Positions 5,280 through 22,947 of a stretch of DNA of 35,249 bases are shown in pieces. The first letter of the stretch is position 1. Each line of letters starts with the position of its first letter. Source of the DNA: Solirubrobacter phytolaccae (GTDB lineage: Bacteria > Actinomycetota > Thermoleophilia > Solirubrobacterales > Solirubrobacteraceae). The stretch spans positions 1 through 35,249 of the forward strand of contig NZ_JAPDDP010000080.1 of the NCBI RefSeq assembly GCF_027587195.1, in the 5' to 3' direction. Made by a program: the position numbers and the translations under genes. Below the pieces are notes generated by a model. It saw only the letters and a list, made by a program, of their open reading frames with translations. It was not told the DNA's origin and did no database searches.

Positions 5280-5352
5280 GTTGGCACTCCTCCTCATTGC
5301 AACGAGCGATCTAGGGTGATTCCGTTCGGTTACTTCTGTGTTGAGAATCCGT

Positions 5353-6327: not shown

Positions 6328-7859
6328 CGTGTCTCCTCCAAAACAACATTGGTGTCAGTCGGCGCGACCGCATGGCTCAGCAGCTCAACCTCGGTCGCGG
6401 TGCTCCCGTCGACCTCGGCGACCAGCTCGCCCTCGCGCATGATCAGGATTCGGGAGCTCAACCCCATCAGCTCCTCCATCTCGGAGGAAACCACCACGAC
6501 GGCGATACCCGCCGCCGAAAGCTCGGCGATCAGCCGGTAGATCTCGGCCTTGGCGCCGACGTCGACGCCGCGCGTCGGCTCGTCGAGCAGCAGGACGCGG
6601 CACTCGCGCAGGAGCCAGCGGGCCAGGACGACCTTCTGCTGGTTGCCGCCGGACAGCTCGCGCGTGATCCGGTTCGGGTTGTCCGGCACCGTGTTGAGCT
6701 CGCGCAGCTTCTCGCCGGTCTGCTTGCGCTCCTCGCGCAGGTTGATGAAGCCGGCCGTGGTGAAGCGGCTCATGTCCGCGACGCTCACGTTCTTGGCCAG
6801 GCTCCACTGCAGCAGCAGGCCCTGGGACTTGCGGTCCTCGGGGGCCAGGCCCATCCCGCGCTCGATCGCGACGGCGGGATTGCCGGCCGGGAGCTTCTTG
6901 CCGTCCAGGTGGACCTCGCCGGTGTTCGGCTTGTCGAGGCCGTAGACGAGGCGCAGCAGCTCGGAGCGACCGGCGCCGACGAGACCGCCGATGCCGAGCA
7001 CCTCACCCGCGCGCACCTGGAACGAGCACTCCTTCACGCGCGGGAGACCCGAGACGCCGCGGACGTCCAGCACCACGTCGGCGTCCGGGGCGACCTTCGC
7101 GCGGTCCGGGAACAGCTGGTCGACCTTGCGGCCCACCATCTTCTCCACGAGCTGCGCGCGGGGCGTGTCGGCCGGCAGGCCGGTCGCGACCGTGCGGCCG
7201 TCGGAGAGGACCGTGACGCGATCGCCGATGCGCGGGATCTCGTCCAGGCGGTGGGAGATGTAGATGACGCCGACGCCGTCGGCGGTGAGCTTGCGGACGA
7301 CGCCGAAGAGGATCTCGACCTCGCCGTCGTCGAGGATCGCGGACGGCTCGTCCATGATCAGCAGCTTCACGTTGCGCGACAGGGCGCGGGCGATCGAGAC
7401 GATCTGCTGCGCGGCGGGGCGCAGCTGGCGGACGAACATGTCCGGCTTGATGTCGCCGTGCTCGAGGCGCTCCAGGAGCGCGGTCGTGTCGGCGCGCATC
7501 TTCGCGCGGTCCAGCAGGCCGAGCCGGCGCGGCTCGTGGCCGAGGAAGATCGACTCGGCGACGCGCAGGTCCTCGACGAGGTCGAGCTCCTGGTAGATCG
7601 TGCCGATGCCCAGCGCCATCGACTGCGACGGCTCACCGACCGGAAGGGGCTTGCCCTCGATCAGGATCTCGCCCTCGGTCGGCGCATGCACGCCCGAGAT
7701 GCACTTGATCAGCGTCGACTTGCCGGCGCCGTTCGGGCCGAGCAGGCAGTGCACCTCGCCGGCGCGTACGTCGAAGTCCATGCCCTTCAGGGCCATGACT
7801 CCCGGATACTGCTTCGTGATCCCTCGGACCTCGAGCAGCGGAGCGGTGCTCTCGCTCAT
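6324..7859 (-). CDS. Sugar ABC transporter ATP-binding protein, tandem-domain RbsA type
   Basis: A 511-residue protein with two fused ABC ATPase domains, as in RbsA/MglA. Domain 1 has a canonical Walker A (GPNGAGKST) and Walker B (LLIMDEPSA), but its signature is altered to RQLRPAAQQ. Domain 2 has a degenerate Walker A (GLVGAGRSE) typical of the family, an LSGGNQQK signature and LLLDEPTRGVD. This asymmetry is normal for the group. I chose the ATG at 7859 because MSESTAPLLEVRGITKQYPG is the standard family start and it overlaps the dehydrogenase stop by ATGA. The protein energises the RbsC-like permease downstream. Confidence 0.93.
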   Translation of the reverse strand: MSESTAPLLEVRGITKQYPGVMALKGMDFDVRAGEVHCLLGPNGAGKSTLIKCISGVHAPTEGEILIEGKPLPVGEPSQSMALGIGTIYQELDLVEDLRVAESIFLGHEPRRLGLLDRAKMRADTTALLERLEHGDIKPDMFVRQLRPAAQQIVSIARALSRNVKLLIMDEPSAILDDGEVEILFGVVRKLTADGVGVIYISHRLDEIPRIGDRVTVLSDGRTVATGLPADTPRAQLVEKMVGRKVDQLFPDRAKVAPDADVVLDVRGVSGLPRVKECSFQVRAGEVLGIGGLVGAGRSELLRLVYGLDKPNTGEVHLDGKKLPAGNPAVAIERGMGLAPEDRKSQGLLLQWSLAKNVSVADMSRFTTAGFINLREERKQTGEKLRELNTVPDNPNRITRELSGGNQQKVVLARWLLRECRVLLLDEPTRGVDVGAKAEIYRLIAELSAAGIAVVVVSSEMEELMGLSSRILIMREGELVAEVDGSTATEVELLSHAVAPTDTNVVLEETR

Positions 7860-9010
7860 CCTGCGACCCCCGCAGATTCGATCGAAACGTCGACCCAACG
7901 GTCCTCACGAGCGGACCGAAGGACAGCGTCGGTGAGCCGGGCGGCGCGCAGGCCGTCCGCGAACACCGGCAAACCATCGGCAACCGTACCGGTCTCGACC
8001 GCGTCGTAGACCTCCGCCGTGAAGGCGTCGAAGCAGTCGGCGTAGCCCTGCGGATGACCGGGCGGAAGCACGGCGTAGCGCTGGGCGGCGGCGGACATGT
8101 GCTCCGGGTCGCGCTTGACCAGCGTGACCGACTCGCGCCGGCCGACCCACAGCTCCTCCGGCTCCTCCTGGCAGAACTGGAGCGCCTCTTCACCGCCGTC
8201 GATCTCGAGCCACAGGCGGTTCTTGCGGCCGGCGGAGATCTGGCTGATGACGGTGGAGCCCACGGCGCCCTGGTCGGTCTCGAACTGCACGACCGCGGCG
8301 TCCTCGGTGCCCACGGAGCGGGCCTCGCCGGCGCCGTTGGCGCTCGAGAAGGCGGCGTGGGCCTCGGTCTTGGTGCGCTCGCGGTTGGCGATCAGGGTGC
8401 GCGCGCACAGGCGCACGATGCGATGACCGGAGACGAACTCGGCGAGGTCGCACCAGTGCGAGCCGATGTCCGCGAACGCCCGCGAGGCGCCGCCTAGATC
8501 CTCTTCGACGCGCCAGTTGTCGTCGGTCGCCTTCAGGAGCCAGTCCTGGAGGTACGTGCCGTGAATGAGACGCACGGGACCGGTGCTCTGGTTGCGCACC
8601 CGCTCGCGCGCCTCGCGCACTGTGGGGTAGAAGCGGTAGACGAACGGGACTGCAGCGATCTTCCCGGACTGCGCGGCCGCGTCGGCCAGGGCCTGGGCGC
8701 TGTCCGCGTCCATCGCGATCGGCTTCTCGAGGATCACGTGCTTGCCCGCGGCGAGGGCCGCCTCGGCGAGCGGGACGTGAAGATGATTAGGTGTGCAGAT
8801 GTGGACGACGTCGACGTCGTCTGCAGCAACCAGCTCGTCGGCGGACTCGAACGCGCGCTCAGCGCCGAGCGCCGCGGCGGCACGCCGGGCGCTTTCTGGC
8901 GAGGAAGCGGCCACCCCCACGAGGGAAGCCCCCGCAAGCCGGGCGGAGCGCGCATGTACGGCACCGATGAACCCGGTCCCTGCGATGGCAACACGAACAC
9001 CTCGTGACAT
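7856..9010 (-). CDS. Gfo/Idh/MocA family NAD(P)-dependent oxidoreductase
   Basis: A 384-residue sugar/cyclitol dehydrogenase. The N-terminal Rossmann fold begins VRVAIAGTGFIGAVHARSA; the family motif EKPIA lies near residue 95, and the C-terminal domain carries the conserved GGASRAFADIGSHWCDLAEF segment with the catalytic Asp/His region. Members oxidise myo-inositol, glucose-6-phosphate, 3-keto-sugar precursors and related compounds. It is the first gene of the minus-strand importer operon, so the imported compound is probably oxidised by this enzyme. The ATG at 9010 is chosen because a good promoter ends 7 bases before it and no ribosome-binding site is seen, which suggests a leaderless transcript. 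The gene diverges from the first ROK regulator. Confidence 0.9.
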   Translation of the reverse strand: MSRGVRVAIAGTGFIGAVHARSARLAGASLVGVAASSPESARRAAAALGAERAFESADELVAADDVDVVHICTPNHLHVPLAEAALAAGKHVILEKPIAMDADSAQALADAAAQSGKIAAVPFVYRFYPTVREARERVRNQSTGPVRLIHGTYLQDWLLKATDDNWRVEEDLGGASRAFADIGSHWCDLAEFVSGHRIVRLCARTLIANRERTKTEAHAAFSSANGAGEARSVGTEDAAVVQFETDQGAVGSTVISQISAGRKNRLWLEIDGGEEALQFCQEEPEELWVGRRESVTLVKRDPEHMSAAAQRYAVLPPGHPQGYADCFDAFTAEVYDAVETGTVADGLPVFADGLRAARLTDAVLRSAREDRWVDVSIESAGVAG

Positions 9011-9147: not shown

Positions 9148-10377
9148 ATGCTGATGGCGGGAGAGGGCAACGGCAGCACATCACCGACCGGTGCGGGGCG
9201 TGTTTTGTCGCTCATCCGCGATGGGGAGGCCGTTACGCGCGCGGACCTCGCCCGCCGTACGGGACTTGCCCGCTCCACCGTCGCCCAGCGCGTCGAAGCA
9301 CTCCTGGCGCACCAGCTGGTCTATGAGGCCGGCGGCAGCGCCTCGACCGGCGGCCGGCCGCCGACGGTCTTGGCGTTCAACCGCTCGGCGGGCGTCGTGC
9401 TCGTGGCCGATCTCGGCGCGACCCACTCCCGCCTGGCGGTCAGCGATCTGTCCGGTGCGCCGCTCACCGAACGTGCGTACGACACCGACATCGCGCGGGA
9501 CCCCGAGGACGTGCTCGCGTGGGTCAACGAGCGGTTCGAGGAGCTGCTGGCGGAGGTCGGGCGGGGCGCCGAGGACGTGCGCGGGATCGGCGTGGGCGTG
9601 CCCGCGCCCGTGGCCTTCTCTCGCGGCGAGCCCGTCGCGCCGCCGATGATGCCGGGCTGGGACGGCTACTCGATCCCGGACTGGTTCGCCCAGCACTACG
9701 ACGCGCCGGTGCTCGTCGACAACGACGTGAACATCATGGCGCTCGGCGAGCACTGGATGCACTGGCGCGACACCGATCACCTGCTGTTCGTCAAGCTCGG
9801 CACGGGCATCGGCTGCGGCATCGTCACCGACCGGCGGATCCACCGCGGCGCGCAGGGCGCGGCCGGGGACATCGGGCACGTGCGGCTCGCCGGGCACGAC
9901 GACGTCGTCTGCCGCTGCGGCAACGTCGGCTGCCTGGAGGCGGTCGCGGGCGGGCGCGCGCTCGCGGCGCAGCTCGCGCGCCGCGGACTGGACGCGACGA
10001 CCTCGCGGGACGTCGTCCGGCTGGTGAAGGCGGGCGAGCCCGCCGCCGTCGCCGCGGTCCGTGACGCCGGCCGCTTCCTCGGCGAGGTCCTGGCCGAGTG
10101 CATCAACTTCTTCAATCCGGGCGCCATCGTCATCGGTGGCGACATCGCCGACGCGCACCAGCATCTCCTCGCGGGCGTGCGCGAGATCGCCTTCGGACGG
10201 TCACTGCCGATGGCCACGCGAGACCTCCGGATGGGCTGCTCGCAGCTGGGCGACCGGGCGGGCGTCATCGGCGCCGCGATCATGGTCGTCGAGCACGTGC
10301 TGGCGCCGGACACGGTCGACCGCGCGATCGCCGCCGATATGGCGGGTGCGGCAAAAAAGCGCCCCGCGACGGCTTAA
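9148..10377 (+). CDS. ROK family transcriptional regulator (XylR/NagC-like), copy 1
   Basis: A 409-residue repressor with an N-terminal winged helix-turn-helix (about residues 15-70: GEAVTRADLARRTGLARSTVAQRVEALL) fused to a ROK sugar-kinase-like domain. The ATP/phosphate loop (DLGATHSR), the VDNDVN motif, GDIGHVRL and the zinc-binding CRCGNVGCLE are all kept, so ligand sensing and perhaps residual kinase function are possible. It starts at ATG 9148; the in-frame ATG at 9154 is an alternative. It diverges from the dehydrogenase/ABC operon and probably represses it in the absence of the sugar. It is followed by a second, very similar ROK gene, so the pair arose by tandem duplication. Confidence 0.92.
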   Translation: MLMAGEGNGSTSPTGAGRVLSLIRDGEAVTRADLARRTGLARSTVAQRVEALLAHQLVYEAGGSASTGGRPPTVLAFNRSAGVVLVADLGATHSRLAVSDLSGAPLTERAYDTDIARDPEDVLAWVNERFEELLAEVGRGAEDVRGIGVGVPAPVAFSRGEPVAPPMMPGWDGYSIPDWFAQHYDAPVLVDNDVNIMALGEHWMHWRDTDHLLFVKLGTGIGCGIVTDRRIHRGAQGAAGDIGHVRLAGHDDVVCRCGNVGCLEAVAGGRALAAQLARRGLDATTSRDVVRLVKAGEPAAVAAVRDAGRFLGEVLAECINFFNPGAIVIGGDIADAHQHLLAGVREIAFGRSLPMATRDLRMGCSQLGDRAGVIGAAIMVVEHVLAPDTVDRAIAADMAGAAKKRPATA

Positions 10378-10390
10378 GACCAGCGGGTTG

Positions 10391-10421
10391 GCGCAAGTCG
10401 GCCGGAGTTCGACTTTTTGTG
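10391..10421. promoter_or_regulatory. Operator-like inverted repeat upstream of the second ROK gene
   Basis: AAGTCG (10395-10400) and CGACTT (10410-10415) form an inverted repeat with a 9-base spacer. Read on the minus strand, the right half is CAAAAAGTCG, close to the CAAAAGTC half-site found upstream of both secreted isomerase-like genes. It could be an autoregulatory ROK operator. This is inference from pattern similarity only. Confidence 0.4.
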
Positions 10422-10518
10422 CGGCCGCCAGCGAAACTTTCCGTCAGAAGGCACGGCGAGCCGCCGCCCCCTCTGCTTTACTTCCGTCGATGGCGGACCC
10501 TCAAGCGAACCAACTCCC

Positions 10519-11685
10519 ATGACCGGCGCGGGGTCGTTACTTCGCCTGATCCGCAACGGGGAGGCGGTCACGCGCGCGGATCTCGTGCGCCGCACCGGTC
10601 TTGCGCGCTCAACAGTCGCGCAGCGGCTTGACGCACTGCTCGCCCATCAGCTCGTCTATGAGGCCGGTGGGAGTGCCTCCACCGGCGGCCGTCCGCCCAC
10701 GGTGCTCGCCTTCAACCAGGGCGCGGGTGTCGTCCTGGTCGCCGATCTCGGCGCCACGCACTCCCGCCTCGTCGTGTCGGATCTCGCGGGCGGCCCGCTC
10801 GCGGAGACCACGTTCGACATGGACATCGCCGACGGTCCCGAGATCGTGCTGGAGAACGTCAATGAGGCGTTCGTCGGCCTACTCACGGAGATCCAGCGCA
10901 GCCCGGACGACGTCCGCGGCATCGGCGTCGGCGTCCCCGGCCCGGTCGCCTTCTCGCGCGGCGAGCCCGTCGCGCCGCCGATCATGCCCGGCTGGGACGG
11001 CTACTCCATCCCCGGCTGGTTCAGCTCGCACTACGACGCGCCGGTCCTCGTCGACAACGACGTGAACATCATGGCGCTCGGCGAGCACTGGACCTACTGG
11101 CGCGAGATCGAGCACCTGCTCTACGTCAAGATCGGCACGGGCATCGGCTGCGGCATCGTCGCCGGCCGCCGCATCCACCGCGGCGCCCAGGGCGCGGCGG
11201 GAGATATCGGCCACGTCCGTCTCGCGGGCCACGACGAGGTCATCTGCCGCTGCGGCAACATCGGCTGCCTCGAGGCCGTCGCCGGCGGCCGCGCGCTCGC
11301 CTCCAACCTCACCGCCGCCGGCCTGCACGCCGAGTCCTCGCGTGACGTGGTCACGCTCGTGCGCGCGGGTGAGCCCCAGGCCATCCAGGCCGTCCGCGAC
11401 GCGGGCCGCTATCTCGGCGAGGTGCTCGCCGGCTGCGTGAACTTCTTCAACCCGGGCGCCATCGTCATCGGCGGCGACATCTCCGAGGCCCACCAGCAGC
11501 TGCTCGCGGGCGTGCGCGAAGTCATCTTCCAGCGCTCACTGCCGCTGGCCACGGGAGACCTCCGCATCGTGCCCTCCCGTCTGGGCGACCGCGCCGGCGC
11601 GATCGGCGCCGCGATCATGGTCATCGAGCACGTGCTCGCGCCCGAGGCCGTGGACCGCGCGATCCAGGCCGGCCTGGCCGCGTAG
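10519..11685 (+). CDS. ROK family transcriptional regulator (XylR/NagC-like), copy 2
   Basis: A 388-residue paralogue of the preceding gene, collinear over its whole length and by eye about three-quarters or more identical. It has the same winged HTH (GEAVTRADLVRRTGLARSTVAQRLDALL), DLGATHSR, VDNDVN, GDIGHVRL and CRCGNIGCLE zinc motif. Differences cluster in the linker strands (EIVLENVNEAFVGLLTEIQ) and in the kinase-lobe surface. The ATG at 10519 is chosen because it aligns with the start of the conserved HTH region of copy 1; frame extension upstream shows no homology. The recognition helix is nearly unchanged between copies, so both may bind similar operators but answer to different sugars. 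Confidence 0.9.
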   Translation: MTGAGSLLRLIRNGEAVTRADLVRRTGLARSTVAQRLDALLAHQLVYEAGGSASTGGRPPTVLAFNQGAGVVLVADLGATHSRLVVSDLAGGPLAETTFDMDIADGPEIVLENVNEAFVGLLTEIQRSPDDVRGIGVGVPGPVAFSRGEPVAPPIMPGWDGYSIPGWFSSHYDAPVLVDNDVNIMALGEHWTYWREIEHLLYVKIGTGIGCGIVAGRRIHRGAQGAAGDIGHVRLAGHDEVICRCGNIGCLEAVAGGRALASNLTAAGLHAESSRDVVTLVRAGEPQAIQAVRDAGRYLGEVLAGCVNFFNPGAIVIGGDISEAHQQLLAGVREVIFQRSLPLATGDLRIVPSRLGDRAGAIGAAIMVIEHVLAPEAVDRAIQAGLAA

Positions 11686-12076: not shown

Positions 12077-13468
12077 CTAAGAGGCGCGTGCGGCCTCGGT
12101 GACGCCGGCCAGGTCCAGCAGCAGGTCGCGCACGTCCGTGGCGGCCACGCGGTCCCGCGCGTGCGAGCCCTCGCTGCACAGGAACACCGGGCCGTCCTCG
12201 TCGCCGGGCGGCATGAGGCCGTGCGTGCCCTTGATGTACTTGGACGCGTCCAGGCCGACGACCGAGAGGACGTAGCGGAAACCCGTCTTCTTGCGCACGA
12301 GGGCCTTGGCGCCGCGGATCTTGGCGCCCTTCTCGTCGTCCGGGTCCCAGAGCAGCTCGGCGGGGTCGTAGCCCGGCTTGCGGTGGATCTCGACCTGCTG
12401 GCCGAAGTCCGGAGCGTGCTTGTTGTCCAGCCAGTAGTGGTAGGTGAACCAGGCGTCGCGCTCGGCGAGGACGACGAGCTCACCGGAGCGCTCGTGGTTC
12501 AGGCCGGCCGCGGCCAGCGACTCGCCCTCGAGCACCTCCCCCACGCCCTCGAGGTTCGTGAGCAGCTCGCGCACCGCGGGGATGTCCGCCGCGTTGGGCA
12601 CGTAGACGTGGCCGATCTGGTGGTCGCTCACGCAGAACGCGCGCGAGGTCCACGGATCGAGGTACTCCATGCCGGCCTGCGTGTAGACGTTCAGGAAGCC
12701 GGCGCGGCGCAGGGCGCGGTTGATCTCGACCGGCCGCCGGGCCTCGGTGATGCCGTACTCGCTGAGGACCACGATCTGGTCGCCGCGGGTGCGGCAGTGG
12801 TCGATCAGGTCGCCGAGCACCTCGTCCAGCTCGCGCGCGGCGGTGAGCGCCTCGGGCGACTCGGGGCCGAAGCGCTGGTGGTCGTAGTCCAGGTGCGGCA
12901 GGTACACGAGCGCCATGTCGAGGTTCTCGTTGTCCAGCACGATCTTCGTGGCGTCCGCGATCCACTTGGTGGACTTGATGTTCGCGGTCGGTCCCCAGTA
13001 CTGGAACAGCGGGAACTCGCCGAGCGGGCCGACGAGGTTGTCGTGCAGCTGCGGCGGGAACGTGTAGCAGTCGGGTGCCTTGGCGCCGTCGGCGTAGTAG
13101 ATCGGGCGCGGGGTGACCGTGAGGTCGGTCGAGGCGCCCATCGCGTACCACCAGCAGACATTCGCGACGCGGAAGTCGGACTTCGCGCGCCGAGCCGTCT
13201 CCCAGACCTTCTCGCCCTGGACCAGCTTGTTGTGCTGGCGCCAGAGGAAGACCTCGCCGAGGTCACGGAAGTACCAGCCGTTGCCGACGATGCCGTGGTC
13301 GGTCGGCTGCTTGCCGGTCACGAACGACGCCTGCACCGAGCAGGTGACCGCCGGGACGATCGGGTCCAGCGCGGCCTGGAAGCCGGTAGCGCCCAGCTTC
13401 GCCGTACGCGGCATGTGCTTGAGCGCGCGCGGCGTGAGTCCGACCGCGTCCACCACCACGAGCGTCAT
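12077..13468 (-). CDS. Alkaline phosphatase/nucleotide pyrophosphatase superfamily protein (EboF-like)
   Basis: A 463-residue protein of the alkaline phosphatase superfamily, close in layout to nucleotide pyrophosphatase/phosphodiesterases. It has an N-terminal metal Asp (D7 in VVVDAVGL), a probable nucleophile Thr42 in PAVTCSVQASFVTG, a YLPHLDYDHQRFGP segment (D194, H197) and a late His in DHQIGHVYV. Where typical members have SDHGM, this protein reads SEYGI (E237, Y238), so one metal site looks altered. No signal peptide is seen, so it is probably cytoplasmic. It is the last gene of the Ebo-like operon; its ATG shares one base with the eboE stop (TAATG) and a GGAGG lies just upstream. Ebo clusters often end with such a phosphatase-like gene. 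The substrate is unknown. Confidence 0.8.
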   Translation of the reverse strand: MTLVVVDAVGLTPRALKHMPRTAKLGATGFQAALDPIVPAVTCSVQASFVTGKQPTDHGIVGNGWYFRDLGEVFLWRQHNKLVQGEKVWETARRAKSDFRVANVCWWYAMGASTDLTVTPRPIYYADGAKAPDCYTFPPQLHDNLVGPLGEFPLFQYWGPTANIKSTKWIADATKIVLDNENLDMALVYLPHLDYDHQRFGPESPEALTAARELDEVLGDLIDHCRTRGDQIVVLSEYGITEARRPVEINRALRRAGFLNVYTQAGMEYLDPWTSRAFCVSDHQIGHVYVPNAADIPAVRELLTNLEGVGEVLEGESLAAAGLNHERSGELVVLAERDAWFTYHYWLDNKHAPDFGQQVEIHRKPGYDPAELLWDPDDEKGAKIRGAKALVRKKTGFRYVLSVVGLDASKYIKGTHGLMPPGDEDGPVFLCSEGSHARDRVAATDVRDLLLDLAGVTEAARAS

Positions 13469-14601
13469 TACAGAACCTCCGCTCCCAGCGCGACCAGACG
13501 GTCGCGCGTCCATTCCAGCTCGGAGGCCAGCCCGGCCACGAGCCCTTCGTCATCCGTGGGCGCGTCCTTCATGACGCTCCACGTGTAGGTCTCGACCTCA
13601 TAGTGCCGCGTCCGCGGCGCCGCGCCCCCGGCGAGCTCGCCCAGCGTGTCGACCAGCTCGTCCTGGGTCGTGTGCTCGTGCGTGTGCACGGGCACATGGA
13701 AGTGCACGCGCCACTGGTCCTTCGCGGGCAGCGCGCCCTCCAGGGCTTCCGGCAGGTCGTCCGTGCCCTGAACCCGCGCGTCCACGATCTCGCGCGTCTG
13801 ATGCAGGAACTTCGGCTCGACGAACCCCGCGAGCAGCTCGCGCCCCGCCTCGGACGACGGGTCATCCACCCGCAGAGCGGAAGACACCTGCGTCTTGACG
13901 ACCGACACGCCCGCCTCGTCCAGCGCGGCGACCGCGCCCTCCCCCGTCTCGAACTGCACGGCGAGATGGCACGCGTCCAGGCACACGCCGATCCAGTCGG
14001 GAGCGAGGCCGCGCAGCGCCTCACAGGCCTGCGCGATCGTCTCGATCGTGCAGCCCGGCTCCGGCTCGAGCGCCAGCCGAACCCGCTTGCCCGTGTCGCG
14101 GTGCACGCGCTCGAGCTCAGCGGCGACGTCGGCGAGCCCGCGCAGGGACTCCTCCTGCTCCGCCGGGCCCCATCCCTCGCGCCAGCCCAGCGGCAGCGTC
14201 GAGATCGAGCCCTCCTCGACGTCGTCGGGCAGCAGGCGAGCGAGCAGCCGCGCCAGCCCCTTCGTGTACTCGCGCCGGGCGTCCTGCGCCCAGTGCGGCC
14301 AGTACACGTCGGTCTTCACCACGTCGGCGTGGAACGCCTTGTACGGGAAGCCGTTGAGCGTCACCACTTCCAACGACAGCTTGCGCAGCTGCTCCGACAA
14401 CCGGTCCGCGGCCGCCTCGTCGGCCACCGCCGGCGCCGCGACCCACAGGCCGACGCCCAGCGACGGCACGTCGAGGCGCTCGCGCACGCGCGCCGTGTAG
14501 CGCTCGAGCTGCGCCGCGACCCCGTCGAGGTCGTCAGCCGGGTGGACGTTGGAGCAATACGCGAGGTGAAGCAGGCTGCCGTCGGGGTGACGCAGACGCA
14601 T
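13468..14601 (-). CDS. eboE: Metabolite traffic protein EboE (xylose isomerase-like TIM barrel)
   Basis: A 377-residue TIM-barrel protein. It starts with MRLRHPDGSLLHLAYCSNVHPADDLDGVAAQLERY, an opening typical of the EboE family. Metal-binding elements of the isomerase-like fold are visible: LALEPEPGCTIET (Glu), GVCLDACHLAVQFE (Asp and His), VKTQVSSAL, and WRVHFHVPVHTHEH near the end, with a conserved YEVETYTWSVM close to the C-terminus. In cyanobacteria ebo genes are needed to move the scytonemin monomer to the periplasm; the chemical activity of EboE is not known. It follows eboB by 7 bp and runs into the phosphatase gene. No membrane segment is visible. Confidence 0.88.
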   Translation of the reverse strand: MRLRHPDGSLLHLAYCSNVHPADDLDGVAAQLERYTARVRERLDVPSLGVGLWVAAPAVADEAAADRLSEQLRKLSLEVVTLNGFPYKAFHADVVKTDVYWPHWAQDARREYTKGLARLLARLLPDDVEEGSISTLPLGWREGWGPAEQEESLRGLADVAAELERVHRDTGKRVRLALEPEPGCTIETIAQACEALRGLAPDWIGVCLDACHLAVQFETGEGAVAALDEAGVSVVKTQVSSALRVDDPSSEAGRELLAGFVEPKFLHQTREIVDARVQGTDDLPEALEGALPAKDQWRVHFHVPVHTHEHTTQDELVDTLGELAGGAAPRTRHYEVETYTWSVMKDAPTDDEGLVAGLASELEWTRDRLVALGAEVL

Positions 14602-14608
14602 CCGTGCC

Positions 14609-15469
14609 CTACCGCTCCCCGCGCAGCACGCCGCTGCCCTCGAAGGTCGCGGTGAGGTCCGGCGCCTCGATGTCGTCGATGATCAGCTGCCCGCTCTGGG
14701 CGAAGAACTCGACCGGGTTGCGCCACACGAGGCGATCGATGTCGTCGGCGCTGAAGCCGGCCTCCGCCATCGCGTCGGCGGTCTTGCGGACCTTCAGCGG
14801 GTCCGAGACGCCCCAGTCGCAGGCGGAGTTGACCAGGATCCGCTCCAGGCCGTGCTCCTGCGCGACGCGGACCATCCGGTACTCGTCCATCTTCGTGCCC
14901 GGGTAGATCGAGAAGCCGGCCCAGCAGCCGGAGTCCAGCACGTCCTTGACGGTCAGCTCGTTGTTGTGGTCGATGACCACGAACTCCGGCTTGACGCCCG
15001 ACTCGATCACCATCTCGATCGTCTTGCGCGTGCCGTGCGCCTTGTCGCGGTGCGGCGTGTGCACGAGCACCGGCAGCTCGAACTCGACGGCGAGCTCGAG
15101 CTGGGCCTTCATCGCCCACTCCTCGGCGGCGGTCATCGCGTCGAAGCCGATCTCGCCGACCGCGACCACGCCGTCCTTCGCCAGGAAGCGCGGGAGGACC
15201 TCGATGACCTCGCGCGCGAGCGCCTCGTCGTTGGCCTCCTTGGGGTTGAGGCCGATCGTGCAGTGATGGCGGATGCCGAACTGCCCCGAGCGGAAGCGCT
15301 CCCAGCCGAGCAGCGAGTTGAAGTAGTCGATGAACGAGCCGACCGCGGTGCGCGGCTGCCCGAGCCAGAACGCCGGCTCCACCAGCGCGCGCACGCCCGA
15401 GGCGTACATCGCCTCGTAGTCGTCGGTCGTGCGCGACGTCATGTGCGCGTGCGGGTCGAAGATTCTCAT
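14609..15469 (-). CDS. eboB: TatD family metal-dependent hydrolase EboB
   Basis: A 286-residue amidohydrolase-fold protein. The first metal motif HxH is at residues 7-9 (FDPHAHM); others are VGEIGFD (Glu), VLVHTPHR (His), FVVIDHNNE (His) and NSACDWGVSDP (Asp), so all expected ligands are present. TatD-like proteins cut phosphodiester or related bonds, but EboB members are tied to metabolite export clusters and their substrate is unknown. The ATG overlaps the eboA stop (ATGA), showing translational coupling. The TRTTDDYEAMYASGVRALVEPAFWLGQPRT segment distinguishes it from the housekeeping TatD DNase. Confidence 0.87.
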   Translation of the reverse strand: MRIFDPHAHMTSRTTDDYEAMYASGVRALVEPAFWLGQPRTAVGSFIDYFNSLLGWERFRSGQFGIRHHCTIGLNPKEANDEALAREVIEVLPRFLAKDGVVAVGEIGFDAMTAAEEWAMKAQLELAVEFELPVLVHTPHRDKAHGTRKTIEMVIESGVKPEFVVIDHNNELTVKDVLDSGCWAGFSIYPGTKMDEYRMVRVAQEHGLERILVNSACDWGVSDPLKVRKTADAMAEAGFSADDIDRLVWRNPVEFFAQSGQLIIDDIEAPDLTATFEGSGVLRGER

Positions 15470-16188
15470 GCGTTCTGCTCCTGGACGTTCCGGTAACTCA
15501 GCGCACGCTCGGCCGCCGCGCGGCGGTCCTCGAACGGGCTCTGCAGCTCAGCTTCGATGGCCGCGATGTGCTCCGCGGACGGGTACTGGTCGATGACCGT
15601 CCAGACCTCGGGCGGCAGGTCACGGCCGGCCGCCACGCGCTCGTGCACGAAGGCGGCGAGCATGCGCGCGCCGTCCGGCGTCACGCGCTCGGGCAGGCCG
15701 TCGATGCCGAGGATCGGCACGCCGACGAAGACGCACTTGATCACGGCCTGGTCGAACTGGGCGTCGGACAGGTGCTTGGTCGCGTACGGCCCGAGCGCCG
15801 CAGCGATGAGCCGCGTGTCGTTCGTGCGGATCGCGTCGTCGACGAGTCCGAGCCCACGGTCCTCGATGTCCAGGTACGCGAGTGCGCGCAGCACGCCGCG
15901 CCGCTCGGCGGCGTCACCGAAGCGGTACAGCTCGGCCAGCTCGGCCTCGGCCCGCTCGCCCGCGGCGAGGAGGAGCAGGACGCGCGCGGCGTCGTCGACG
16001 GTCCACGCCCACACGTCGGCGGGGTCGGCGGACGGGTCCAGCGGCTCACGCCCGACCTTGCGGCCGACCATCGCGAACTTCGTGCGCAGCGCGGCGGCGT
16101 CGGCCGCCACCGCGGCGCTCGTCTCGCGCAGCCAGGCCAGTCCTTCGGGCCGGGCCCGCTCCTCCAAAGCAGCAGTCAGATCTTTCAT
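15466..16188 (-). CDS. eboA: EboA domain-containing protein
   Basis: A 240-residue, mostly helical protein with no transmembrane segments. The central part (VDDAARVLLLLAAGERAEAELAELYRFGDAAERRGVLRALAYLD) and the later IKCVFVGVPILGIDGLPER and MLAAFVHERVAAGRDLPPEVWTVI segments match the EboA domain pattern. The second half looks like helical-repeat structure. The function is unknown; it is always found beside eboB and eboE, so it is probably a scaffold or partner in the same pathway. The ATG at 16188 follows GAGGCG at good spacing and overlaps the isomerase stop (ATGA). Confidence 0.85.
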   Translation of the reverse strand: MKDLTAALEERARPEGLAWLRETSAAVAADAAALRTKFAMVGRKVGREPLDPSADPADVWAWTVDDAARVLLLLAAGERAEAELAELYRFGDAAERRGVLRALAYLDIEDRGLGLVDDAIRTNDTRLIAAALGPYATKHLSDAQFDQAVIKCVFVGVPILGIDGLPERVTPDGARMLAAFVHERVAAGRDLPPEVWTVIDQYPSAEHIAAIEAELQSPFEDRRAAAERALSYRNVQEQNA

Positions 16189-17027
16189 CGAATCGCCTCA
16201 CGCTCAGCCGCGCGCAGCGCGGACTTGGCCGCCGGCACCGTCTCGTGCGCGGCATGGGAATGTCGTGAGAGCTCGACCGCGACCATCCCGGTGTAGTCGA
16301 TCTCGGAGAGCACCCTCAGGCTCTCGTCGAGGTCGAGCTCGCCTTCGCCGAACATCAAGTGCTCGTGGACGCCGCGCCGCATGTCCTCGATGTGGACGTG
16401 CGCGAGCGTCGGTGCGCCGCGGCGCACGCACTCGGTCACCGACATCGGCTCCAGGCAGACGATGTGGCCGATGTCGAGCGTCAGCCCGAGCGCCGGCGGG
16501 CTGCCGAGCCGCCGCTGCAGCTCCTCGTAGTCCGACAGCTGCTCGACGAGCATGCCCGGCTCGGGCTCGAAGGCGAGCGTGATGCCGTTCGCCTCGGCGT
16601 GGGTGAGCACGCGCTCGCAGCCGTCGACCAGCAGGTCCCACGCCTTCTCGGGCGACTCGTCGGGCGCGATCGAGCCGCTCCACATCGAGACGACGGGCGC
16701 GCCGAGCTCGGCCGCGACGTCGACCGCGGTGCACAGCAGGTCCACGCGCTTCTGGCGGCCGTCGCTCACGAGCGTCGGGAAGTGCTTGCGGCGCGGGTCC
16801 AGCACGAAGCGTGCGCCCGTCTCCACCACGCACGTCATCCCCCGCGCTTCCAGTTCCGCGCGCACGCGCGCCGCACGCGCGCGCAGGCGCGGGGCGAACG
16901 GGTCGAAGTGGATGTGGTCGAGGGTCAGCGCGATGCCGCCGTAGCCGTTCTCGGACAGCAGCTCGAGTGCGTCCTCGAGGCGGTGGTCGGACAACCCGTT
17001 CGAGACGTAGCCGAAGCGCAGGCTCAA
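16185..17027 (-). CDS. Sugar phosphate isomerase/epimerase (AP_endonuc_2 TIM barrel)
   Basis: A 280-residue TIM-barrel isomerase of the IolE/hydroxypyruvate isomerase type. Metal-site segments are clear: LAFEPEPGMLVEQ (Glu), LGLTLDIGHIVCLEP (Asp, His), LAHVHIEDM (His) and MVAVELSRHSH (Glu). I place the start at TTG 17027, overlapping the EboC stop as TTGA, because AGGAGG lies 8 bases upstream and MSLRFGYVSNGLSDHRLEDALELL is the expected first strand; the long upstream open frame only shadows the prenyltransferase gene. In the operon it sits between eboC and eboA, and it is a second TIM barrel in addition to EboE. Its position in a cyclitol cluster suggests action on an inositol-derived or sugar intermediate. 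Confidence 0.85.
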   Translation of the reverse strand: MSLRFGYVSNGLSDHRLEDALELLSENGYGGIALTLDHIHFDPFAPRLRARAARVRAELEARGMTCVVETGARFVLDPRRKHFPTLVSDGRQKRVDLLCTAVDVAAELGAPVVSMWSGSIAPDESPEKAWDLLVDGCERVLTHAEANGITLAFEPEPGMLVEQLSDYEELQRRLGSPPALGLTLDIGHIVCLEPMSVTECVRRGAPTLAHVHIEDMRRGVHEHLMFGEGELDLDESLRVLSEIDYTGMVAVELSRHSHAAHETVPAAKSALRAAEREAIR

Positions 17028-17923
17028 GTCACTTTCCTCCTCTTGGCCATCTTCCGGGCGAGCGGGAACAGCGCCGCGATGCCCGCGGCGGGCCCGAGCG
17101 AGCCCGACCCGGCGAGCAGCCCGGCTTCGAGCGGCATGAGGCCCATGATCCCAGCGCCGACGGACTTCTGCAGGCGGGCGGGGGTCGGCTCGGCGATCGC
17201 GTCCACGTGCGCGCGGCCGACGAACGCGCCGTAGGCGCCGGCCAGGCCGAAGGCCGCGCCGCGCGTGAGCTTCGGCGCCCCCTGGGCCAGCAGCGCGCTC
17301 ACGCTCGCCACGGCGGCGGTGCCCGCCAGCGCGCGCTTGGACACGCCCGGGTCGCCGCCGGTGACCTCCTGGCGCGAGACCTCGGTGACCATGGTGATGT
17401 GCGCCGTGACCACCGCGGCGGCGGGCAGGGCGGCGGCCGCGCCGCGCGTCCCGGAGCCCATCAGCACATCCAGCCCGCGGCACGCGGCCATCGACAGCGA
17501 CGCCACCGGGGTGTCCTTGCCGAACAGGTCGTAGCCCCAGACCGCGGCGGCCAGCGGCCACGCGACCGGCAGCGCGCGGCGACCGTCGGCGGCCACGGCC
17601 AGCGCGAGCGAGCCTGCGGTGAGCGCGCCCGCGAACCCCAGCGCGAACTCGGGCGAGACACGCCCGGAGGGAATGGGCCGTGAGGGACGCTCGACCGCGT
17701 CGACCTCACGGTCGGCGTAGTCGTTGAGCGCCATGCCGGCGAGGTACATCATCGACGACGACGCGACCAGCCCCGCGGTCCGCGGGACGTTGCCGAGCTG
17801 GCCGGACGCGGCGACGCCGACGAGCACGTCGCCCGGCACGGACAGCACCGCGGGCAGCCGGACCAGCTCGGCGATGTCACCCGCGCGGCGAATCCGAGCC
17901 CGTCGCCGAAAGCCGCGCTGCAT
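17024..17923 (-). CDS. eboC: UbiA-like prenyltransferase EboC
   Basis: A 299-residue polytopic membrane protein of the UbiA superfamily with about eight or nine hydrophobic segments. The first Asp-rich, magnesium/prenyl-diphosphate-binding motif is NDYADREVD, followed by ERPSRPIPSGRVS, both diagnostic. The second region reads GYDLFGKDTPVASLSMAACRGLDVLMG. Family members transfer a prenyl chain to a small acceptor. With the adjacent inositol-phosphate synthase, a prenylated or lipid-linked cyclitol is a reasonable hypothesis but not proven. Its ATG is 3 bp after the stop of the synthase gene, and its stop overlaps the next gene. Confidence 0.85.
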   Translation of the reverse strand: MQRGFRRRARIRRAGDIAELVRLPAVLSVPGDVLVGVAASGQLGNVPRTAGLVASSSMMYLAGMALNDYADREVDAVERPSRPIPSGRVSPEFALGFAGALTAGSLALAVAADGRRALPVAWPLAAAVWGYDLFGKDTPVASLSMAACRGLDVLMGSGTRGAAAALPAAAVVTAHITMVTEVSRQEVTGGDPGVSKRALAGTAAVASVSALLAQGAPKLTRGAAFGLAGAYGAFVGRAHVDAIAEPTPARLQKSVGAGIMGLMPLEAGLLAGSGSLGPAAGIAALFPLARKMAKRRKVT

Positions 17924-17926
17924 CGC

Positions 17927-19090
17927 CTAAGCGACGACCCGCTGGAGTACCCAGCGCTCGAGCATGTCGTACTGCGTGTGGAGGGCGTGCTCGCTGGTGC
18001 CGACCGGGTCCTTGAAGAAGAACGCGAGCGAGCTCATCGGACCGCGTTCGCCGCGCTCGAGGGCGAGGCCCATCAGGCGGATGAGGTCCAGCAGCAGCGG
18101 GGCGGCCAGCGTCGAGTCGCAGCCTTCCCACGTGAACTGCAGCTTCATCCGGACGCCCATGAAGCCTTCGAAGACGATGTGGTCCCAGGCGGTCTTCCAC
18201 TCGCCCATGTCCTTGACGTCCTCGATCCGGATCGGCGCCTCGACCGGGTAGCCGAGGATGTCCTCGAGCAGCTTGCCCTTGGAGTCCAGCTTGGACTGCG
18301 CGCGCTCGGGATCGGCCAGCGCGGCACCGTCGCCGCCGCCGAGGATGTTGTACCCGGCCCACGAGCGGACCTTCAGGTTGCGCGTGCCGAGCGCCGGCGC
18401 CAGCACGGACTTCATGAACGTCTCGCCCGTCTTGCCGTCCGAGCCCGCGACCGGGACCTCGTGGGCCTCGGCCAGCGCCTCGATGGCGGGCAGGCGCGCG
18501 CCGACGGAGGGCGTGAAGTCCACGAACGCGGCGCCGACCTCGATCGCCGCCAGCGCGTACAGCGCGCTGGGCGGCAGCACGCCGAGGCCGCGGTCCAGCG
18601 CGTCCATCAGCAGCGCGGGGTCCTGGTGCGCGGGGTGCGGCTCGACCGGCGCCTCCGTCGAGGAGACGTTGACGACGACCAGGCGCTGCAGGTCGTGACG
18701 CGTCTTGAACGAGCTGAGGTCCGAGACGATCCGGCCCAGCGCGGGGCGCGGCTCGGTGCGCGCCTCGTGGCCGGTGATGCCCGGACGTTGCTCGGACTCG
18801 GCGGCCTCGATGGCGGCGCCGAGCGCGTTCGGCAGCCCGTGCGGCAGCACGCCGTCGTCGACCAGCTTCGCGGCGCGCAGCGCCAGCGGCGTCTCGACGA
18901 CGTCGTGGCCGCCGAAGACGAGATCCCCGAGCTCCGGCATGCCGGCCTCGGTGAACGGCGGACGCATCGTCACCATGCCCGTAGGCTCGGTGAGACCGGC
19001 AGCGACAGCCGCCGCGCCGGTCAGCGCGGTGGTCGCAACCGACCCGCGACCACCGACGAGCCACACGCCGACCCGGCGATCGGTACTCAT
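17927..19090 (-). CDS. ino1: Inositol-3-phosphate synthase family protein
   Basis: A 387-residue protein of the myo-inositol-1-phosphate synthase family, close to the length of actinobacterial enzymes. The NAD-binding start is VGVWLVGGRGSVATTALTGAAA; the most conserved catalytic block is VAGSDGKTGETFMKSVLAPALG with NILGGGDGAALADPE, matching the family's lysine-rich active site and NxGxxDG loop. The C-terminal GCDSTLAAPLLLDLIRLM segment is also typical. The enzyme converts glucose-6-phosphate to inositol-3-phosphate using internal NAD. It heads the seven-gene minus-strand operon and diverges from a ThuA-like gene. Ebo clusters normally carry EboD, a dehydroquinate-synthase-like cyclase; here a different sugar-phosphate cyclase takes the place. 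GGAGGG upstream of the ATG supports the start. Confidence 0.87.
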   Translation of the reverse strand: MSTDRRVGVWLVGGRGSVATTALTGAAAVAAGLTEPTGMVTMRPPFTEAGMPELGDLVFGGHDVVETPLALRAAKLVDDGVLPHGLPNALGAAIEAAESEQRPGITGHEARTEPRPALGRIVSDLSSFKTRHDLQRLVVVNVSSTEAPVEPHPAHQDPALLMDALDRGLGVLPPSALYALAAIEVGAAFVDFTPSVGARLPAIEALAEAHEVPVAGSDGKTGETFMKSVLAPALGTRNLKVRSWAGYNILGGGDGAALADPERAQSKLDSKGKLLEDILGYPVEAPIRIEDVKDMGEWKTAWDHIVFEGFMGVRMKLQFTWEGCDSTLAAPLLLDLIRLMGLALERGERGPMSSLAFFFKDPVGTSEHALHTQYDMLERWVLQRVVA

Positions 19091-21019: not shown

Positions 21020-21052
21020 CGGGTTGTCACCCGGACCCCATGACTGGGTCCG
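21020..21052 (+). promoter_or_regulatory. Two leader hairpins upstream of the ribosome-binding site
   Basis: CGGGT-TGTC-ACCCG (21020-21033) is followed, with slight overlap, by CGGACCC (21032-21038)/GGGTCCG (21046-21052). The AGGAGGAG ribosome-binding site follows within 10 bases. The GGGTTGTCACC block and a GGACCC-type stem recur in the leader of the paralogue. They may regulate stability or translation; no known riboswitch class is recognised. Confidence 0.55.
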
Positions 21053-21069
21053 TAACGAGGAGGAGTTAC

Positions 21070-22947
21070 ATGAAGGGAATCTCTCGGCGCACGCGTGCGT
21101 GCGCCGTTGCGGCAGGCATGGCGGTCTTCGCGACCGCAGCCACCGCCCAGGCCCAGACGCGCCCGGAGAAGGTCGGCGACGGCATTCCGACCGGCCAGAT
21201 GAGCGTCCAGATGTTCAACTACGGCTCGTTCATCCAGCACGGCCTGCGTACGAGCTTCGGTCCTGAGCTGCCGCAGAGCGCCGTGTCGGCCGCCTGCGTC
21301 GCGCCCGAGGGCCAGCAGACCGGGCAGGGCGCGCCGCCCAACCCGGCCAACACGGCCGCGTGCCACGCCGAGCGCCTCGAGGCCCTCTTCGCCTTCCTGC
21401 AGAAGAAGGGCGTCACGAGCATCGAGCTCTTCAGCCACTCCGGCTTCCCGGGGCTGACCGACGCCACGGCCAACCAGAACTACCGCAAGCTGCTCGAGAA
21501 GTACGGCCTGCGCGCCGCCGGCTGGCACGGCAACATGCAGACGTCGGTCAACCAGGCCTGGCGCGACCGCGTCCAGCAGGCCAAGTGGCTCGGCGCTGAC
21601 TCGCTCGGCACGGGCGGCTACGGCAGCCCCGGCATCGGTACGTACGCCAACGTGCTGCAGACCGCGCAGAACCTCAACGCGCTCGGCAAGTACTCGGTCG
21701 AGGCCGGCGTCGGCGCCGTCTACGTGCACAACCACACCGCTGAGTTCGACACCAAGTACACGCACAACGGCGTCCTGAAGTCCGCGGTCGAGATCCTCGC
21801 GGAGCTCACCGACCCGCGCTACGTGTTCTTCGAGCTCGACGTCTTCTGGTCCTCGGACGCGTTCGACGACGAGACCGGCAACGCCAGCGCCGCCATCATC
21901 AACTCGATGCCGACCCGCGTCCGGATGCTCCACATCAAGGACGGCATCAACGTCGCCAACCGCGCCTCCGCGACCGACAGCCGCGCCGGCTCGCCGCGCG
22001 CCACGGGCACGGGCGTCGTCGACTTCCGGCCGATCTTCGCGGCCGCGAAGAACCGCGTGCAGTACTACCACCAGGAGCACGACGGCGGCAACATGGCCGA
22101 CGCCGGTGTGTCCTTCACGAACCTGAAGGGCATCAACACCGCGTCCGTCCCGACGCTGAACGGCTTCCCGTCCGGCCCCGCCGCCGCGGGCCCGGCCAAC
22201 AGCACCAACTCGTTCAAGGTCAACGTCACGAACACCGGCGACAAGCCGCTCGCGATCACGACCGCGTCGATCGTCGGCGACAACGCCGCCGACTTCGCGA
22301 TCGCCACCAACGGCTGCCTCAACCAGACGCTGGCCAACGGCACGCTCGCCACCGAGACGGCCCCGGCCGTCGCGCGCGGCACCTGCGAGGTCACGGTCAA
22401 CTACCGGGCCACGGCCAACCTGAAGAGCTCGGTCGCGTACCTGCAGTTCGCCTCCAACGCGGATGACGCCACGGAGCGGGTCCTGCTCACGGGCCAGACC
22501 ACCAGCTCCTACGTGGCCGACAGCCCCGTCGGTGGCACCGTCGGCGCCACCCTCGCGCTGAGCCTCGGCGCGCCGGTGAACTTCGGTGCGTTCGTCCCGG
22601 GCGTCGCCCGCAACTACGACCAGAGCGCCACCGCCTCCGTGCTGAGCACGGCCGGTGACGCGACCCTGTCGGTCTCCGACGCGGACACGGTCAACACGGG
22701 CAAGCTCGTCAACGGCGCGTTCGCGCTGGCCTCGCCGGTGCAGATCAGCGCCAACAACGCGGCCAACCCGGCGATCGCCTACAAGGCGGTCGGCGCGTCG
22801 ACCTCGCTGCTCACCTACGCCGCGCCCACTCCGGGCACGGACGCCGTCACGCTGAACTTCCGTCAGTCGATCGGGGCGAGCGATCCGCTCCGCACCGGCG
22901 CCTACGCGAAGACGCTGACGTTCACGCTCTCCACCACCACGCCGTAG
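21070..22947 (+). CDS. Secreted TIM-barrel sugar isomerase/epimerase-like protein with Ig-like C-terminal domains, copy 1
   Basis: A 625-residue exported protein. An arginine-rich signal peptide (MKGISRRTRACAVAAGMAVFATAATAQA) is cut about residue 28. Residues about 35-345 are a xylose-isomerase-like TIM barrel with metal-site motifs VHNHTAEF (E225), FELDVFW (D257), MLHIKDG (H288) and YYHQEHD (E336), plus the diagnostic GTGVVDFRPIFAAAK. Residues about 375-475 resemble an ASPM/SPD-2/Hydin-type Ig-like (choice-of-anchor) domain, and a second beta-rich domain runs to the end (TLTFTLSTTTP). The fold suggests an extracytoplasmic isomerase or lyase acting on sugars or keto-sugars, with the C-terminus perhaps for wall or partner binding. 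The start has a strong AGGAGGAG. A paralogue lies 0.9 kb downstream. Confidence 0.83.
   Translation: MKGISRRTRACAVAAGMAVFATAATAQAQTRPEKVGDGIPTGQMSVQMFNYGSFIQHGLRTSFGPELPQSAVSAACVAPEGQQTGQGAPPNPANTAACHAERLEALFAFLQKKGVTSIELFSHSGFPGLTDATANQNYRKLLEKYGLRAAGWHGNMQTSVNQAWRDRVQQAKWLGADSLGTGGYGSPGIGTYANVLQTAQNLNALGKYSVEAGVGAVYVHNHTAEFDTKYTHNGVLKSAVEILAELTDPRYVFFELDVFWSSDAFDDETGNASAAIINSMPTRVRMLHIKDGINVANRASATDSRAGSPRATGTGVVDFRPIFAAAKNRVQYYHQEHDGGNMADAGVSFTNLKGINTASVPTLNGFPSGPAAAGPANSTNSFKVNVTNTGDKPLAITTASIVGDNAADFAIATNGCLNQTLANGTLATETAPAVARGTCEVTVNYRATANLKSSVAYLQFASNADDATERVLLTGQTTSSYVADSPVGGTVGATLALSLGAPVNFGAFVPGVARNYDQSATASVLSTAGDATLSVSDADTVNTGKLVNGAFALASPVQISANNAANPAIAYKAVGASTSLLTYAAPTPGTDAVTLNFRQSIGASDPLRTGAYAKTLTFTLSTTTP

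Follow-up and report, generated by a model that had tools for sequence, protein, structure and literature searches.

An ebo operon form in which an inositol-phosphate-synthase homologue and a partner isomerase occupy the place of EboD

The window analyzed here, a stretch of 35,249 nucleotides from Solirubrobacter phytolaccae (contig NZ_JAPDDP010000080.1, positions 1 to 35,249), carries seven genes at 12077–19090, all on the minus strand. The initial annotation described them as overlapping or nearly touching, and this is borne out: in the order of transcription, the intergenic gaps are +3, −4, −4, −4, +7, and −46 bases. In that order, the genes are:

17927–19090, minus strand: INO, archaeal-type myo-inositol-phosphate-synthase homologue (387 aa; PF07994 and PF01658)
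17024–17923, minus strand: EboC-type UbiA prenyltransferase, SCO3242 family (299 aa; PF01040, NF045897)
16185–17027, minus strand: ISO, ketose-3-epimerase-type TIM-barrel isomerase, the partner of INO (280 aa; TTG start; PF01261)
15466–16188, minus strand: EboA (240 aa; NF035938)
14609–15469, minus strand: EboB, TatD-type metal-dependent hydrolase (286 aa; PF01026)
13468–14601, minus strand: EboE, TIM-barrel protein (377 aa; NF035939, PF01261)
12077–13513, minus strand: EboF, type I phosphodiesterase/nucleotide pyrophosphatase family (478 aa, start uncertain; PF01663)

A longer open frame from 17561 was considered as the ISO gene and replaced by 16185–17027, with its TTG start. EboF has an alternative start, an in-frame ATG 15 codons downstream, with which the 46-base overlap with EboE would shrink.

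The core genes match ebo families to different degrees. EboA scores 149 bits on the EboA domain model NF035938 (cut-off 50) and 90 bits, below the cut-off of 320, on the narrower family model NF035937; EboE reaches 389 bits on NF035939 (cut-off 250). The EboC-type protein matches PF01040 and carries an NDxxDxxxD motif (residue 67) and a YDxxxKD motif (residue 131); its score is 329 bits on NF045897, “SCO3242 family prenyltransferase” (cut-off 260), and 144 bits on the EboC model NF035940, below the cut-off of 250. EboB matches PF01026 and is 53–61% identical to EboB of EboD-type records in seven genera (39% for Deinococcus), while EboF (PF01663, 211 bits) is 42–49% identical to its counterpart in seven plasmid-borne EboD-type clusters and 63% identical to that at locus L089, from a relative in the same family. 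Going by the NCBI name “metabolite traffic protein,” the cluster could be a metabolite-export module in which the ring enzymes feed differing cargoes with no common scaffold; this is unlikely, however, given that enzyme families account for all the genes but EboA, which is without a Pfam match, and that Pfam and NCBIfam searches gave no transporter family for any of them.

According to the accessible sections of PMC5133447, the eboABCDEF operon of Bacteroidetes, Cyanobacteria, and eustigmatophyte plastids clusters the same EboA, EboB, EboC-type UbiA, EboE, and EboF, and, like the window, holds a ring-forming sugar-phosphate enzyme. In the window, however, this enzyme is not EboD, which is absent from the operon, but the unrelated cyclase INO, accompanied by the extra ISO, and the order is INO-C-ISO-A-B-E-F. 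Could EboD reside elsewhere in the genome? A PF01761 search returned two proteins. One is, by visual inspection of the sequence, an AroK-AroB fusion; the other, a further cyclase, adjoins a class-III aminotransferase and scores 204 bits on NF004852 (cut-off 333, with 541 bits for EboD from L089) and 299 bits on the AroB model, just under the cut-off of 305; being AroB-like rather than EboD-like, it was rejected as a displaced EboD.

INO matches both domains of myo-inositol-phosphate synthase (MIPS) above cut-off (PF07994, 154.5 bits; PF01658, 106.5 bits). Its best PDB match in a profile search is the A. fulgidus MIPS (325 bits), and its structure model aligns to 3qvw with Z 51.8 and an rmsd of 1.5 Å. 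The A. fulgidus myo-inositol-1-phosphate synthase (1u1i, 3qvw, 3qvx) and INO are alike in fold, length, and active-site lysines, but identity is only 35% and INO sits inside an ebo operon. K267, K271, K299, K360, and N248 of INO are invariant in 20 of 20 sequences, the catalytic lysines thus being intact; in this mapping, A. fulgidus K278, K367, and N255 come from mutant entries, and K274 and K306, which we take to be catalytic lysines, are placed by a constant offset of 7. MIPS catalysis is the work of a lysine network, according to the available part of PMC11348189. INO may convert glucose 6-phosphate to inositol 1-phosphate.

INO is not the only INO1 of its genome: a second one lies on another contig, is distant from INO, and is closest to the mycothiol type. 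On the mycothiol INO1 model TIGR03450 (cut-off 638), the second enzyme scores 543 bits and INO 37.9 bits, both below cut-off, and these scores rule out that INO is a copy of the mycothiol enzyme; in the INO tree, the mycothiol enzyme could not be placed (branch length 10, with a program warning).

How widespread is this arrangement? In a phylum-wide sample of 396 genomes, EboA is found in 18, and 17 of these have an INO of the window’s type at the ebo locus. A search of the same genomes with profile A1, which was trained on the very loci that it then separates, found 17 window-type INOs (543–628 bits), all in EboA genomes, with the next INO at approximately 322 bits. Of the 18 loci, 16 repeat all seven genes with their order unchanged, and the seven-gene run is complete in 64 of the best 80 named loci; because of this recurrence the arrangement is far beyond chance, and a chance neighborhood is ruled out. 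The form has been seen in Actinobacteria, haloarchaea, and Gemmatirosa; it is the usual ebo form among the actinobacterial genomes sampled and no peculiarity of one genome. The initial annotation had proposed counting co-occurrence of the synthase with ebo genes and had named two findings that would speak against its reading: the synthase as the genome’s only INO1 with no conserved linkage to ebo genes, or an eboD elsewhere forming the real cluster. Instead, a second INO1 exists, the linkage is conserved (17 of the 18 EboA genomes), and no EboD lies in an ebo setting.

The two ring enzymes appear to avoid each other. EboB was strongly matched in 51 plasmid records (three further matches of the 54, at 22–26% identity, were excluded, being taken for general members of the TatD family). 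Of these 51, 32 have INO, 16 have EboD, three have neither, and none has both among the matches listed. ISO is present in all 32 INO records and in none of the 16 EboD records (E 1e-20; EboD again among the matches listed). The EboD count covers the best 30 of 54 records, from which the 16 with at least 47% identity were taken, the others listed having at most 38%; the 51 records are not independent because many of the Streptomyces plasmid records are near-copies. L089 repeats the pattern on the other side, with EboD (52% identical to that of Gloeothece) in place of INO and ISO absent. INO plus ISO and EboD were found together in none of the records searched, taking EboD from the matches listed. 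The initial proposal that the synthase occupies the role of EboD therefore holds as to replacement but not as a one-for-one swap: it is INO plus ISO that replaces EboD.

If the genome already has another INO1, why would it carry INO in an ebo operon? INO might simply produce myo-inositol 1-phosphate that goes into inositol lipids or thiols, with the ebo neighborhood a matter of supply or convenience; the kept active-site residues fit this, as does the presence of INO without detectable ebo genes in eight of the best 80 named loci, which also counts against the explanation that we favor. But a supply gene would not explain why INO and ISO lie exactly in the place of EboD and are not found with it in any of the records searched. 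In addition, 15 of 94 loci encode ISO and EboA as a single fused protein. We regard this account as quite improbable.

The replacement appears repeatedly on the tree. In a tree of EboB, EboE, and EboF with 33 scored rows (L173, L077, L087, and L019 being left unscored), there are at least four changes between INO and EboD, and Gemmatirosa, which has INO, groups as sister to Deinococcus, which has EboD, with support of 100/100; the switch between INO plus ISO and EboD must have occurred at least twice. Part of the 80 named loci went into the trees: L014, whose identities to the window are the same as those of L013, was dropped beforehand, as were EboE of haloarchaea and of the broken L087, and Gloeothece was dropped from the three-gene tree. 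EboB alone does not place L089, which the three-gene tree nests; an AU test (p 0.073) did not reject a tree with L089 outside the INO rows of Actinobacteria, which counts against the favored explanation.

The model of ISO aligns to 3wqo with Z 32.4 and to UlaE (3cqi) with Z 29.7. E154, E156, D185, H188, and E252, which presumably correspond to the metal-binding positions of the superfamily, are kept in 21 of 21 sequences, and position 212 is His in seven and Gln in 14. The reaction of ISO cannot be named because its best score to curated epimerase, isomerase, or inosose dehydratase models is 52.7 bits, far below the cut-off of 317. No pair other than ISO-EboA is fused in the intact clusters among the 94 loci (L013 and L090 are one contig, which a few all-locus counts include twice). 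The accessible text of PMC5133447 mentions actinobacterial xylose-isomerase/EboA hybrid proteins as “data not shown,” most likely this same fusion; the operon around them is not described in those sections, and the word “inositol” is absent from the paper’s main text. L077, a second cluster copy in one genome, has ISO and lacks INO, which counts against the favored explanation. In haloarchaea, ISO matches are weak (28–33% identity) with two per cluster, and the assignment of ISO versus EboE is ambiguous.

These observations are best explained, with a probability of about 75%, by an alternative form of ebo in which a shared core (EboC, EboB, EboE, EboF, and in most cases EboA) works with one of two interchangeable ring modules, INO plus ISO or the sugar-phosphate cyclase EboD, which belongs to the dehydroquinate-synthase superfamily, leading to what would be a prenylated cyclitol. 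The substrate of INO, acting with bound NAD, would be a hexose 6-phosphate, with glucose 6-phosphate the likeliest, and its product a cyclitol phosphate with a six-membered ring. ISO has the fold of enzymes that enolize next to a ketone and, while bound to EboA, may epimerize or otherwise adjust the cyclitol or its keto form. EboC would then add a prenyl chain, EboF would take off phosphate or pyrophosphate, and EboB and EboE may trim the product, which would be held in the membrane and act there as carrier or cofactor, the role suggested for cyanobacterial ebo.

Is the ring inositol phosphate itself? A narrower version of this explanation, to which we give somewhat less than an even chance, holds that it never is: INO plus ISO would supply another small ring or a modified cyclitol (an epimer, a keto-cyclitol, or an aromatic formed via water loss) for prenylation by EboC. 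The PDB names Ari2 (6k96), a relative of INO, as a five-membered-cyclitol-phosphate synthase, the fold of ISO is ketose-3-epimerase-like, and ISO is tied to EboA. UbiA-297, the Maribacter homologue of EboC, likewise fits: as far as the accessible portion of PMC9235831 shows, it prefers an aromatic acceptor in vitro, farnesylating 8-hydroxyquinoline-2-carboxylic acid and not a cyclitol. By both identity and Z, however, INO is far nearer to the A. fulgidus MIPS (35% and 51.8) than to Ari2 (24% and 28.9).

Two of these comparisons also count against the broader prenylated-cyclitol explanation: homologues of INO can form other rings, as 6k96 indicates, and UbiA-297, the one tested EboC homologue found, takes a quinoline acid, according to that same portion of PMC9235831. 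Both UbiA-297 and the window’s EboC are prenyltransferases of ebo clusters, but the Maribacter cluster is described there as eboA-E with a 3-dehydroquinate-synthase-like EboD, which the window lacks. A ScyD/ScyE-like protein at L177, with a similar one at L089, was rejected as a general ebo partner: one query returned three loci, of which two coincide, and the other returned two, its own included.

No description of the INO-type form was found in the literature searched, which comprised open-licence papers. Clusters of ebo genes span many phyla and algal plastids, and their product is chemically unsolved in the literature examined. A swap of non-homologous ring enzymes with the rest of the cluster kept is a natural experiment: it implies that the ring-forming step is essential, narrows the product to what both enzymes can supply, and points to a ring-shaped sugar alcohol at its heart. 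The INO-type form also makes the question testable in Streptomyces, whose standard toolkit includes knock-outs, labelling, and metabolomics.

Streptomyces coelicolor may offer a case in point. SCO3242 and SCO3243, with consecutive tags, are annotated as a putative transferase and a myo-inositol phosphate synthase, and SCO3242 is the namesake of the family matched by the window’s EboC; unlike the window’s operon, they are counted as genes of the CDA cluster in the available sections of PMC3610822. Annotation and family name, rather than S. coelicolor sequence, suggest that the pair corresponds to the window’s operon, so that genes now assigned to an antibiotic cluster may belong to something else. 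A bolder conjecture, conceivable although less likely than not, is that the ebo core always prenylates a cyclitol, that cyclitol making evolved twice, with EboD using a proposed C7 sugar phosphate and INO plus ISO a C6 one, and that Streptomyces, haloarchaea, and Cyanobacteria share an undescribed prenylated cyclitol membrane lipid or carrier, to which, and not to the antibiotic, SCO3242 and SCO3243 would belong.

The ebo cluster is best seen as a core joined to an exchangeable ring module. The operon in the window carries INO, an inositol-phosphate-synthase homologue, and ISO, a ketose-3-epimerase-type TIM-barrel isomerase, in the following setting:

19090 down to 12077, minus strand: seven genes, INO, EboC, ISO, EboA, EboB, EboE and EboF
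9148-10377 and 10417-11685, plus strand: tandem pair of similar ROK-family regulators, pointing at the end of the ebo operon
4242-9010, past the two regulators: sugar ABC importer and Gfo/Idh/MocA oxidoreductase
21040-22947 and 23822-25576, plus strand: a large protein each, both containing xylose-isomerase-like TIM barrels (the second scoring slightly below the Pfam cut-off), with N-termini that resemble signal peptides by eye

From INO to EboF, the genes are spaced by +3, -4, -4, -4, +7 and -46 bases; ISO starts with TTG at 17027. All seven names are backed by Pfam and NCBIfam, with two reservations: the prenyltransferase scores above the cut-off of the NCBIfam “SCO3242 family” model and below that of the EboC model, and the names EboB and EboF are based on domain family plus position.

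What replaces EboD, the sugar-phosphate cyclase of classical clusters? The initial annotation placed another cyclase in the EboD role; INO does take that place, but the swap is not one-for-one: two genes, INO and ISO, stand in for one. In L089, an EboD-type locus from the same family as the window genome, the cyclase directly precedes EboC, followed by EboA, B, E and F, and both INO and ISO are absent. A protein labelled “3-dehydroquinate synthase” in 16 plasmid records (Deinococcus, Azospirillum, Gloeothece, Roseivivax, Mycetohabitans, Ketogulonicigenium, Salipiger, Aureibacter) shares 47-60% identity with this cyclase, and an EboB match is present in 16/16 of them. Detailed reading of seven of these loci shows classical ebo clusters that include EboE, UbiA and phosphodiesterase; EboA is present in six, Deinococcus having a small unnamed gene instead. 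In the Gloeothece stretch, EboB and EboD are the sole ebo genes shown. Over all plasmids, EboB matches 54 records, 51 of them strongly; these 51 are not independent cases, many Streptomyces plasmids being near-copies of one another. INO is found in 32 (25 Streptomyces, 2 Embleya, Nonomuraea, Halobaculum, Halocatena, Natronococcus and Gemmatirosa), EboD in 16, neither in three and both in none. The three are a Haladaptatus plasmid with ISO and two Streptomyces plasmids (L217 and L218) in which EboB, EboE and EboF alone were detected, probably remnants of an ebo cluster. At E 1e-20, ISO accompanies INO in 32/32 records, the haloarchaeal matches being weak and double, as against 0/16 EboD records. 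Among all loci read, EboD occurs in 9/9 EboD loci, which lack INO and ISO (0/9), versus 0/110 others (18+80+5+7, with one place entered twice and the 80 picked by INO).

ISO is also tied to EboA: the two share a single open frame in 15 of the 94 loci in which they are adjacent, and no other neighbouring pair in this locus set does so, save EboE-EboF in the broken locus L087. Actinobacterial hybrids of this sort are mentioned in passing, data not shown, in the first ebo paper, whose main text does not contain the word “inositol” (PMC5133447). The same paper's guess that the ebo product is a cyclitol compound (PMC5133447) gains support, because two non-homologous ring-forming enzymes are exchanged; the INO and EboD forms may make one compound or two different ones. 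The Streptomyces plasmid genes are already labelled singly in NCBI annotation, and two S. coelicolor genes, probably of this kind, have been assigned to the CDA antibiotic cluster (PMC3610822); searches of open-licence literature found no description of them as an ebo cluster that includes an inositol-phosphate synthase.

The linkage of INO to ebo genes, on which the initial annotation relied, is conserved. EboA occurs in 8/201 genomes of the order sample: the window genome and five of its genus have the complete set, one has EboD (L089), and in one the contig ends before INO. In the phylum sample, EboA occurs in 18/396 genomes (0/14 named controls); an SCO3242-type prenyltransferase exceeds the cut-off in 17/396, all 17 among those 18, and is broken in the eighteenth. 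Of 18 loci (L071-L088) from 17 of these genomes, the window genome apart, 16 have all seven genes in identical order; the exceptions are L087, from which both INO and ISO are missing, and L077, the second of two copies in genome G325 (probably a Streptomyces), which has no INO. In L077 (10817-13901), ISO is retained, and upstream lie two frames that look FAD oxidoreductase-like and inositol-monophosphatase-like. A profile of 20 INO proteins finds INO at E 1e-30 or better in 79/396 genomes, 17 at 543-628 bits and the next best at ~322, a gap partly by construction because the profile was built from the same loci. The 17 all carry EboA, with their matches at ebo loci; the absence of any high-scoring INO outside ebo clusters in these 396 genomes is not by construction. 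Linkage is less strict in named genomes: among the best 80 of at least 581 stretches with INO relatives, 62 have exactly the seven genes in order, two have an additional isomerase, three are contig ends with INO-EboC, five are other partial forms, and eight have INO alone despite 9 kb of flank on each side. In these eight (L102, L114, L118, L122, L124, L164, L165, L168), ebo genes are undetectable in the flanks; a distant isomerase lies directly upstream of INO in L164, L165 and L168, and a gene downstream of INO in L118 is 59% identical to that preceding EboD in L089.

Could INO be the housekeeping enzyme, or a true EboD lie elsewhere? The window genome (7.7 Mb, 169 contigs) has two PF01658 proteins, so INO is not its sole INO1: the second, on another contig, reaches 543 bits with the model for mycothiol INO1, whose cut-off is 638, and INO 38. 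As for a real cluster elsewhere, neither of two DHQ-synthase matches qualifies as EboD, since one resembles an AroK-AroB fusion by eye and the other (L022 6453-9018, AroB superfamily) scores 204 bits against NF004852 (cut-off 333), versus 541 for the EboD of L089, and adjoins a class-III aminotransferase, with which it possibly forms an aminocyclitol pathway.

By profile score and by model, the nearest relative of INO is the Archaeoglobus enzyme: the profile search gives A. fulgidus inositol-phosphate synthase 325 bits versus 66 for the M. tuberculosis enzyme, and the predicted model (pLDDT 92) superimposes on the former (structure 3qvw) with Z 51.8 and rmsd 1.5 A over 370 residues at 35% identity (1gr0, Z 29.0). 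The mutant entries K278A, K367A and N255A map to INO K271, K360 and N248, identical in 20/20 members, as are K267 and K299. Because lysines catalyse the reaction in the MIPS family (PMC11348189), this fold and these retained residues make INO very likely a cyclising NAD enzyme. Its product would be some cyclitol, possibly one with a five-membered ring, since a relative (6k96, Ari2) is recorded in PDB as a five-membered-cyclitol-phosphate synthase. The ISO model (pLDDT 95.5) has a ketose 3-epimerase fold (3wqo, Z 32.4; UlaE, Z 29.7) with conserved metal-site-like residues, and passes none of the curated models of known reaction. EboC retains both UbiA aspartate motifs. EboC is reported to resemble the digeranylgeranylglyceryl-phosphate synthase of archaea, whose prenyl acceptor is a polyol phosphate (PMC6282210), but the single tested homologue that was found preferred an aromatic acid in vitro (PMC9235831).

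On an EboB+EboE+EboF tree (37 rows, 33 scored), cyclase type requires at least four changes. Gemmatirosa (INO) stands beside Deinococcus (EboD) at 100/100, and L089 falls within the actinobacterial INO rows at 96/89, a nesting that is likely, not proved, because a tree that groups those rows to the exclusion of L089 withstands the AU test (p 0.073). The INO tree, which includes one very long row, has a split (96/91) between actinobacterial and haloarchaeal ebo-type INO and the INO found in other clusters; Gemmatirosa falls on the latter side.

Haloarchaeal plasmids (L170-L173: Halobaculum, Halocatena, Natronococcus, Haladaptatus) carry an archaeal form of the ebo cluster: EboB, two isomerases, UbiA, EboF and, except in Haladaptatus, INO, with no detectable EboA. 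Plasmids of Roseomonas (L174, 9851-20722) and Hymenobacter (L175, 9779-18480) have no detectable ebo genes, and their gene content points to a further pathway resting on the INO and ISO pair. There, the two families sit together with a Gfo/Idh/MocA oxidoreductase, a YcaO-like protein and a PIG-L deacetylase, to which Roseomonas adds methyltransferase and glycosyltransferase genes.
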